DNA from: Albifimbria verrucaria
Taxonomy: Eukaryota > Ascomycota > Sordariomycetes > Hypocreales > Stachybotryaceae
DNA: 64,000 nt
NCBI GenBank assembly: GCA_020081605.1
Contig: JAHREC010000019.1
Location: 434,001 to 498,000 of the forward strand
Direction: 5' to 3'
Below the pieces are notes generated by a model that was given only the letters and a program-made list of their open reading frames with translations, was not told the origin of the DNA and did no database searches. Shown piece by piece: positions 1,851 to 5,900 of the stretch (within the stretch, counting starts at the first letter, position 1; each line of letters starts with the position of its first letter). The position numbers and the translations under genes are program-made.

Positions 1851-2182
1851 ATAGCTAACTGTCGGGTGTTGTCATATTCCATATTCGAATTTCAGCTGTT
1901 CCGATGAGAACAAATTCTTGCATATGTGATAATCCTCGGGCAAGAACCATCAGCACAATGTATCTGAAGTGGCTCAATGTACCCTGCTCCACCATGATTA
2001 TTTCTCCTCACGGAGATCGACAAACAGACGGTTGGAAACGGGCCTATATCATATCGAATAGCTAATTGTTACCGTAGCGGACTCAGCGCTAGGGAATCTG
2101 TGGTCCCATAGGGGTTCGGACATGGGAAAATTGAGAGTTCAAGTCCACTTAATATACCAAGTAATTCCTGTATCAAGAAATA
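1851..2182. other. Intergenic DNA left of the MITE
   Basis: No coding sequence recognised. A tRNA-like B-box string (GTTCAAGTCC, about 2141-2150) is present, but no cloverleaf could be folded around it. Confidence 0.4.
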
Positions 2183-2438
2183 TCCCCTTGAGGCCGGTAA
2201 GCTGCAGACCAAGTAGAAGCCCCACAACGTCTTAGTCATGCGTTAGTACATGAAGCAACTCGTTGAATCTCTGATTCATACAATTATCGTGATGTAACTA
2301 CATGTAGCGAGGGGCAATGCCAGTACATCTATTATCGGCTAATTTACTAGGCCTTCTATGTATCTAGTTTTTATCCGGTTCCAATTGGTCAATTTACTGG
2401 TTTGCTACTTAGTCTGCAGCTTACCGGCCTCAAGGGGA
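2183..2438. mobile_element. 256-bp MITE with 34-bp terminal inverted repeats and TA target site
   Basis: The left end at 2183-2216 (starts TCCCCTTGAGGCCGGTAAGC) and the right end at 2405-2438 are reverse complements over 34 bases with one mismatch, at 2210. Both ends are flanked directly by the dinucleotide TA (2181-2182 and 2439-2440), as expected for the target-site duplication of Tc1/mariner-type elements. The 188-base interior has no ORF, so the element is non-autonomous. The near-identical ends suggest recent activity. No second copy was noticed in this window. Confidence 0.85.
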
Positions 2439-2440
2439 TA

Positions 2441-2935
2441 GGCCTTGAGGGTTGGTGCGACCCAGGATGAGTCTACAGAGGAGCAAGAATGACGATAGGA
2501 TTGATGCTATGATACCAATATTAGCAATAATAGCTTCTAGGAACAGTGCCATTGTTGCAACTTGATGCTAATACATTAAGAAATTGGAATGGGTCCCTGA
2601 ATTAACAACTGGAAGCTAGGCATGGTCAACGAACCCGTTACATATACTACTACTGCGATATGTCACAGAATCATCGGGCGTTGATTAGTTCTTACTCATC
2701 GGATAATGCACCCCTTCAGATGGCAACCTCAACGATTGGAAGTATCATGGCCTCGCCGTTTGATTGTGAAAAGAAGGACAATTGGCTTTCTCCTGGAAAT
2801 ATTATACAGGAGCTTCACTGATATTCAGAACCCAAGTATCATCATTAATTTGGCTACGTGTTTCGAAGTCCCAAACCTATCATGTCTCCATATCCAGTTA
2901 ATACACGAAATAAGATAATATATGAAATAGAATAT
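2441..2935. other. Intergenic DNA right of the MITE
   Basis: No supported gene. A 70-codon ORF at 2706-2918 has no recognisable features. The segment runs into the 3' end of the minus-strand ferredoxin-like gene. Confidence 0.4.
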
Positions 2936-3400
2936 TCATTCAGTTCCACCTAACTGGCTTGGATCCAAAAGAAGATCATCCTCGACGCGAATAATGATTT
3001 CAAGATCGCTCAGCGGGTAAGCGACGTCTGTTAGGATATAACCAATTTCAATATATTCATCGTCCAGGAATGATTGGGCACTCTGGTCCACTTTCCCAGA
3101 AATTAGCTTCGCGGCCGAGGTGCTGCTGGCCCCTGCACGGTCCGAATATGGCCACTCGTAGCCGAGTTCCTCAGCTCTATCAAGTAGATACTCGTCGTCC
3201 GGACAATCAAATGTATGCTTTTGATCAGGAAATTCTTTTTCAGACCAGGTAATCTTATAGACTGCCGCTGCGACAAGCTTCAAGCAAAATCAAGAGTCAG
3301 TATATGAGAAATGGAAAAGAAGCTCAGAGAGAAAATCATAAGCATGACGTACCTTGGAGCTCAAGAGGGCGAGGAATAGAGCTGCAGTCTTGATAAACAT
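2936..3400 (-). CDS. Secreted plant-type ferredoxin homologue lacking all four cluster cysteines
   Basis: Two exons, 3400-3353 and 3277-2936, with an intron starting GTACGT and ending AAG, encode 129 residues. Exon 1 plus the first codons of exon 2 form a signal peptide ([16 protein letters not shown] then LVAAA). The rest aligns end to end with plant and cyanobacterial [2Fe-2S] ferredoxins, including [34 protein letters not shown] and [10 protein letters not shown]. The spacing of the cluster ligands (C-x4-C-x2-C-x29-C) is kept exactly, but the ligands are D62, S67, S70 and D100. The only cysteine left is C41. It therefore cannot hold a normal 2Fe-2S cluster. A TATAAATA box lies about 100 bases upstream of the start, which supports the start and expression. 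Function is unknown. Fungi normally carry only adrenodoxin-type ferredoxin, so the gene may be acquired. Confidence 0.8.
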
Positions 3401-3500
3401 AATGCCTATAGGATTGGTTACTTGGATGGTTTTATTGTAATGAAGCATGTAGTTGCAAAGAGTAATGGCTTCAAAAACTAAAGTGGGAGGCTAAATATCT

Positions 3501-3508
3501 TATTTATA
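3501..3508 (-). promoter_or_regulatory. TATA box of the ferredoxin-like gene
   Basis: On the minus strand this reads TATAAATA, 101-108 bases before the ATG at 3400, a usual distance for fungal secreted-protein genes. Confidence 0.45.
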
Positions 3509-5463: not shown

Positions 5464-5766
5464 CTACACCCTAGCCCTGGCGTTTGAGAAAAACTTAGAA
5501 CAGTCTTTAAGCGACTTAAAATCTAGATGTTCATCGGTAGATGGGACTCTGAGCACGAAGTCTTTAATGTTCAACAGATTAAGCTTACCTCCGTTCTTCA
5601 CTAAATCCTCACAAACCTCGGAGATCTGCTCCAAATAATCTATAAGATCTTTTGGGCTTTCATCTTCCTGGCGACGAGTTAGAGTAGTCCCAGCTTTGCC
5701 GCCCACAACAGACGCGGCAGCAACGGCAGCGGCGCCGAAAACAATAGTGGTAAATGTGAGCTTCAT
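5464..5766 (-). CDS. Small secreted protein, 100 residues
   Basis: A single exon encodes 100 residues. Seen: an N-terminal signal peptide (MKLTFTTIVFGAAAVAAAS), then a short segment ending in a dibasic site (TLTRR) that could be a Kex2-type processing point, then an acidic, leucine-rich mature part with two cysteines (EVCEDL and LKDCSK) that could form one disulphide. No family recognised. Size, signal peptide and isolation in an AT-rich stretch fit an effector-like or pro-peptide-bearing secreted protein, but this is inference. A minisatellite lies about 130 bases upstream of its start. Confidence 0.6.
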   Translation of the reverse strand: MKLTFTTIVFGAAAVAAASVVGGKAGTTLTRRQEDESPKDLIDYLEQISEVCEDLVKNGGKLNLLNIKDFVLRVPSTDEHLDFKSLKDCSKFFSNARARV

Positions 5767-5900
5767 AATGAAAAATCAAAAGCCAAGTAGTTTGTTTTCT
5801 CCAACTTATGAATGACAAGCTTACTGGCTTCTGAAATGGGTTCTGAGTGTGGGCGATAATGCTTCTTCGTCGCCAGACGAGCTCTTGTTATAATAAATTA

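Follow-up and report, generated by a model that had tools for sequence, protein, structure and literature searches.

In plant-type [2Fe–2S] ferredoxins, the cluster is in contact with backbone NH groups of the surrounding loop; together with its four thiolates, it carries a charge of −2 in the oxidized state. Several described proteins are close to the locus analyzed here: the Anabaena ferredoxin PetF (1fxa; TIGR02008/PF00111); pectocins M1 and M2 (8jc1, 4n58), in which a ferredoxin domain that keeps its cysteines is joined to a killing domain and serves to bind a receptor, not to transfer electrons; the mFDX-like/C1-FDX protein of plant complex I, described in the available text of PMC10069907 as a ferredoxin with lost ligands and a structural role; and the “ferredoxin (2Fe–2S)” of the carotovoricin (ctv) cluster of Pectobacterium. 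The last is mentioned in PMC6813493 and PMC6963963, whose available text does not speak of missing cysteines, and when it was deleted in Pcb1692, the assays used showed no change in bacteriocin production or competition (PMC6813493, available text). In the titles and abstract openings of the open-licence literature, we found no description of Cys-less or of fungal plant-type ferredoxins.

The gene described here lies on the window, the whole stretch of 64,000 nucleotides that was analyzed (C16:434001–498000 of an assembly that looks fungal and comprises 48.4 Mb in 41 contigs), and its product, hereafter the query, is by its sequence a homologue of plant-type ferredoxins without the defining feature of that class (Table 1). 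A spliced first exon is needed because exon 2 contains no in-frame ATG; exon 1 gives a signal-like start in frame with exon 2, and the spliced product has 129 residues (16 + 113). The curated cut-offs of PF00111 (28.3 bits against 21) and TIGR02008 (106 bits against 81.15) are passed, cyanobacterial ferredoxins of known structure match the query (56–58% identity to Anabaena chains), Arg42 and Glu94 are present, and Pfam finds no second domain in the 113-residue exon-2 part. The predicted fold is a β-grasp ferredoxin fold, the model agreeing with Anabaena PetF (1fxa) to 0.9 Å over 98 residues. In contrast to plant-type [2Fe–2S] ferredoxins, all four cysteines of the C-x4-C-x2-C-x29-C ligand set are replaced and the N-terminus is signal-like; Cys40 remains. 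The original prediction of a plant-type ferredoxin with D-S-S-D in the ligand places is therefore confirmed as an observation by the two profiles, in agreement with the predicted fold; the interpretation attached to it is partly supported, as set out below. A protein search of the source genome found a single copy and no paralogue, and the two other Fer2 loci of that genome (a reductase fusion, L001, and an adrenodoxin-like protein, L002) have kept their cysteines.

Table 1 Features of the Cys-less ferredoxin gene (window 2,936–3,508, minus strand)
Feature	Position in window	Strand	Content	Basis
Exon 1	3353..3400	-	16 codons: start codon and signal-peptide-like stretch	Read directly
Inferred intron	3278..3352	-	75 nt, GTACGT...TTGAAG (AAG acceptor)	Read directly
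Exon 2	2936..3277	-	113-residue Cys-less plant-type ferredoxin part, stop included	PF00111, TIGR02008, predicted fold
Ligand position 1	3140..3142	-	D62 (GAC)	Sequence and alignment
Ligand position 2	3125..3127	-	S67 (AGC)	Sequence and alignment
Ligand position 3	3116..3118	-	S70 (TCG)	Sequence and alignment
Ligand position 4	3026..3028	-	D100 (GAC)	Sequence and alignment
TATAAATA	3501..3508	-	101–108 nt upstream of ATG	Consensus match only

A search for homologues, advised along with the original prediction, uncovered a Cys-less family. Three protein searches contributed 218 proteins (12 matches, the best 120 of 3625 and the best 120 of 2761), and among the query and these best matches the ligands are CCCC in 174/219 and other in 45/219. 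Setting aside P0007 (D-S-C-C) and adding a Pectobacterium protein read from genome DNA (L180) gave the 45-row Cys-less set used below, query included; in this set from best-match searches, 43 rows have no ligand Cys, and a single one is left in P0022 (SCSD) and in P0159 (GDCD). The named fungal members belong to Penicillium frequentans (P0021), P. salamii (P0134), and Purpureocillium lilacinum (P0145), the named bacterial members all to Pectobacterium; the rows that have Trp37, 30 with the query counted, are called fungal-type. D-S-S-D is exactly kept in P0001, 89–91% identical to the query over 75 residues, and in P0012 (45–53%); the latter shares 51% identity with a bacterial protein and is probably bacterial itself. 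Two proteins outside the set may be recorded here: P0007 has 172 residues, a lipoprotein-like N-terminus, and a ferredoxin domain that has lost half of its cysteines, and the “ferredoxin-1” of Penicillium taxi (P0148), a fungal protein encoded on a contig of ~5 Mb, is an ordinary four-Cys plant-type ferredoxin.

A ferredoxin counts here as Cys-less if no more than one ligand Cys is left, ligand 4 is acidic, and a single acid occupies ligand 1 or 2, all of which holds for the query (D-S-S-D). In wider surveys, a script check found no Cys-less ferredoxin among 80 of the 559 confirmed loci on viral contigs, and L006 alone among 80 of the 171 on genome contigs. Annotated phage records matching P0149 number 279, the 40 listed being cyanophage proteins named ferredoxin (judged by their names), and 19 plasmid records match, each at <60% identity (judged by identity). 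Among 198 genomes searched at E ≤ 1e-15, three match: G001 and G068 with Cys-less proteins and G139 with a four-Cys fused protein.

The replacements follow a simple rule. In the best-match set, which is enriched for the rule through its search alignments, themselves made up of Cys-less rows, ligand 4 is an acid in 44/45 rows (the exception is P0131, GDSG), exactly one acid occupies ligand 1 or 2 in 44/45 and both in 0/45 (the exception is P0022), and ligand 3 is Ser or Thr in 43/45; Gly, Ser, or Ala is frequent at ligand 1. On the tree described below, the acid changes five times at ligand 1 and six times at ligand 2, in opposite directions and always traded; a sign test was ruled out because only three of the ligand 1/2 change pairs are independent on well-supported branches. 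Alignment A2, made of DSSD and SDSD rows only, recruited the rule-abiding GDSE, SESD, AETD, and GDAD rows, and the L206 protein (GDSD), found outside the 45-row set, obeys the rule as well. Since Cys-to-Asp requires two base changes and Cys-to-Glu three, the pattern is not one-step decay. The former cluster site is thus, to judge from these residue patterns, rebuilt under constraint and not merely lost. Elsewhere in the domain, Arg42 is found in 29/30 fungal-type and 14/14 Pectobacterium rows, and Glu94 in all 44.

Two carboxylates carry the same charge (−2) as the oxidized cluster with its thiolates and are able to accept bonds from backbone NH groups. In the reading that we favor, the acid pair would replace the lost [2Fe–2S] cluster in both respects and hold the loop, which would leave a redox-dead ferredoxin shape capable of binding only. 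A shape-keeping, cluster-free family with so simple a replacement rule would be a natural test of the role of the cluster in the fold. It is also conceivable, though rather unlikely in our estimation, that one metal ion, for example Fe, Ca, Mn, or Zn, is bound by the carboxylate pair and the Ser/Thr in place of the cluster, making the protein a metal-stabilized binder or small metal carrier. Two acids do stand at a former metal site, each in 44/45 rows, and the Arabidopsis mFDX-like protein has a single metal ion at the site after the loss of one Cys (PMC10069907, available text); however, the acid shifts between ligands 1 and 2, and with Gly, Ser, or Ala at ligand 1 few ligands would be left. 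The mFDX-like/C1-FDX protein differs further from the query in being of the mitochondrial type, with one ligand lost in land plants and no acid-pair rule reported in the available text of PMC10069907.

The bacterial members reveal a genomic setting. In P. aroidearum (L006), the Cys-less ferredoxin gene lies in a contractile-tail operon that contains lysis genes, sheath, tube, tail chaperone, tape measure, and baseplate hub and that is, by this make-up, a carotovoricin cluster. The 174-residue neighbor of the ferredoxin is a tail tube FII protein according to Pfam, which we followed, and a head closure protein according to PHROGs. In L006 and L166–L180 alike, PHROGs gives this label to the tail tube and calls a Gp37-like protein “portal protein”, both at odds with Pfam. 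An intact Cys-less copy is present in 12/25 Pectobacterium genomes. Carotovoricin-like tail tubes (at least 97.7% identity) are present at 21 of the 24 tail-tube loci; of these 21, 12 carry the ferredoxin gene behind the tail-tube gene, with a tube–chaperone gap of 480–512 nt, and eight are without it, with a gap of 145–162 nt; in the remaining one (G022), the chaperone lies outside the stretch and a broken ferredoxin copy is found further on. The three tail-tube loci at 83% identity have no ferredoxin gene. All 12 intact copies are situated between the tail tube and a terminator-like hairpin, and where the ferredoxin is absent the hairpin directly follows the tube gene, so that the ferredoxin looks added to the transcript of the tube.

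Among the 12 bacterial genes, dN/dS has a median of 0.090 (range 0.028–0.259) over 61 of 66 pairs, the other five having been dropped for low or undefined values; the bacterial members are under purifying selection. Other Pectobacterium ferredoxin frames with a printed loop have CCC in 14/14 loci and also in L184, a count that leaves out L189 and L190; L169 and L188 represent a different ferredoxin type. The carotovoricin “ferredoxin (2Fe–2S)” of the literature has thus lost its ligands in 12/12 intact copies examined. The ctv protein resembles the query in being Cys-less and in obeying the acid rule, and differs from it in being bacterial, in belonging to a tailocin operon, in having no signal peptide, and in having Leu37 in place of Trp37; no phage family was detected by Pfam in 10 scanned frames neighboring the query. 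That the query gene is a decaying, non-functional ferredoxin gene, as its single copy and its lost ligands might suggest, we regard as very improbable, because frame and splice sites are intact, P0001 retains all four residues, the acid rule is family-wide, and dN/dS of the bacterial members is low. The many Cys-less relatives, P0012 with its D-S-S-D included, likewise bear out the earlier proposal of selection rather than decay; the family itself, the acid rule, and the link to tailocins had escaped that proposal because they are not visible from the window.

A second enterobacterial tail cluster contains a family member. In G068, a GDSD Cys-less ferredoxin (the L206 protein; L242, 8494–8880) is encoded with antiterminator Q on one side and two holins and an endolysin on the other; its TIGR02008 score of 45.1 bits is under the cut-off. 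The cluster continues with tail terminator, sheath, tape measure, baseplate hub, baseplate J, Mu Gp48-like protein, tail fiber, and fiber assembly genes, and lies between T6SS genes and a sugar transporter. With no capsid, terminase, or portal family in the frames searched (five frames, four L242 tail frames, and 10 of 25 L243 frames), it looks like a Mu-type tailocin. Together with the carotovoricin loci, this places family members in two distinct tail clusters and at separate positions within them, in each case presumably released by lysis genes, and the G068 member moved the weight from a plant target toward competition between microbes.

The ancestry of the Cys-less state was addressed with a tree (88 rows, 92 columns) from which the four ligand columns had been removed and which does not include L206. 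The 45 Cys-less rows fall on one side of a branch with weak support (63/80), and the best tree requires one change of Cys state; a single origin is thus weakly supported by the alignment. An alternative tree joining the Pectobacterium Cys-less rows with the pectocins is not rejected (p-AU 0.554) and has a slightly higher likelihood, and Trp37, present in 30/30 fungal-type rows, occurs in no Pectobacterium row. The cysteines may therefore have been lost more than once, the fungal and Pectobacterium proteins being separate and convergent with separate functions; we take this as a serious though lesser possibility, since the best tree needs only one change, Phe35, Ala51, and Arg52 are common to most rows of both groups (Ala51 also to pectocins; the query has Tyr35 and Lys52), and both groups obey the same acid rule. 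Lateral acquisition, as originally proposed, remains likely from the one copy and the patchy spread of the family, but the tree does not point to a plant donor: the nearest tree rows of the query are Cys-less proteins, and spinach and maize fall among the ordinary ferredoxins. As to the gene being Starship cargo, DUF3435 matches were found on contigs C14, C18, C19, C20, and C21, and none on C16, the contig of the window.

Taken together, we lean toward the view that the query is a probably secreted, cluster-less ferredoxin acting as a redox-dead binder, most likely extracellular, in microbial competition, an electron carrier turned pure binding protein. Bacteria would produce the ferredoxin along with the tailocin and release it through the tailocin lysis genes, and the source fungus would export it; in either case it would occupy a partner that recognizes the ferredoxin surface, for instance a FusA-type receptor. 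Since free spinach ferredoxin competes with pectocins for their receptor (PMC3302902, available text), competition by an iron-free protein is workable in principle. The unchanged phenotype of the ctv deletion counts against this view, as do the 22/30 fungal-type rows that show no signal peptide. The query would resemble pectocins in the proposed use of the ferredoxin domain for receptor binding, although it has neither their cysteines nor their killing domain. The positions of the FusA face, as given by the NMR list in the available text of PMC5095587, are too variable among four-Cys proteins for retention to be judged. Still more tentatively, and in our opinion unlikely as a whole, carboxylate-pair ferredoxins may have moved between tailocins and fungi, the iron-free protein released by both jamming the FusA-type receptors of rivals and so blocking ferredoxin iron or bacteriocins using the same door; or, in tailocins, the protein may ride with the particle. 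The occurrence of the family in fungi and in two kinds of bacterial tail clusters itself points to microbial contests, in which plant ferredoxin is an iron source.

Secretion was considered separately. The query protein is probably secreted, judging from its N-terminus, with a hydropathy peak of 2.52 close to those of P0015 (2.58) and P0055 (2.51) in a hydropathy check, the latter two having the signal-like N-terminus within one open frame each. In frames that ignore introns, these three are the only ones of the 30 fungal-type rows to show such a start (3/30), 22/30 have Met right at the mature start, 2/30 are truncated, and 3/30 have other extensions; an upstream exon could escape notice because the frames ignore introns. 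The earlier description of a signal peptide split off by an intron fits the signal-like exon 1 of the query, but does not extend to most fungal-type rows in these frames. Secretion is not a general rule of the Cys-less family, and export may be peculiar to some members.

The same data bear on a plant-directed effector, that is, a decoy that binds FNR or another ferredoxin partner in the chloroplast, or else a plant receptor. Whitefly BtFTSP1 acts on a tobacco ferredoxin (PMC10583550, available text). The signal-like N-terminus of the query, the plant cell-wall enzymes elsewhere in the window, and the retention of Arg42 and Glu94 would suit such a role. However, the chloroplast must be reached, most fungal-type rows have no signal peptide, and the bacterial members reside in tailocins. 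Special conservation of the FNR-binding face is not supported: on a list of positions that we take to be the FNR contacts, 15/19 conserved positions are kept compared with 28/35 other conserved positions (Fisher p = 1.0), and a cruder count (16/20 against 61% of the rest) looked better because this face is more conserved in all ferredoxins. We therefore consider a plant-directed role improbable, and retain the redox-dead binder in microbial competition as the preferred reading.

In the surroundings of the gene, GC is 41–46% in the first 6 kb of the window and 49–57% at 7–16 kb. A MITE-like element of 0.28 kb (window 2173–2448), with 44-nt inverted arms (91% complementary), lies 0.5 kb past the 3′ end of the gene and has matches over 110 nt at 41 places in the genome, itself included. 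Frames further along the window belong to the FMN reductase, MFS, rhamnogalacturonase-like, GH1, and α-rhamnosidase families. A frame on the minus strand at window 5464–5775, starting MKLTFTTIVFGAAAVAAA, encodes a small protein that looks secreted and matches no Pfam family. The ITS of the source genome (L005) appears to resemble that of Myrothecium-like Stachybotryaceae. Elsewhere in the source genome (G000 C4:677912–679033), a match to the TRI5 family (trichodiene synthase) fits a trichothecene producer.
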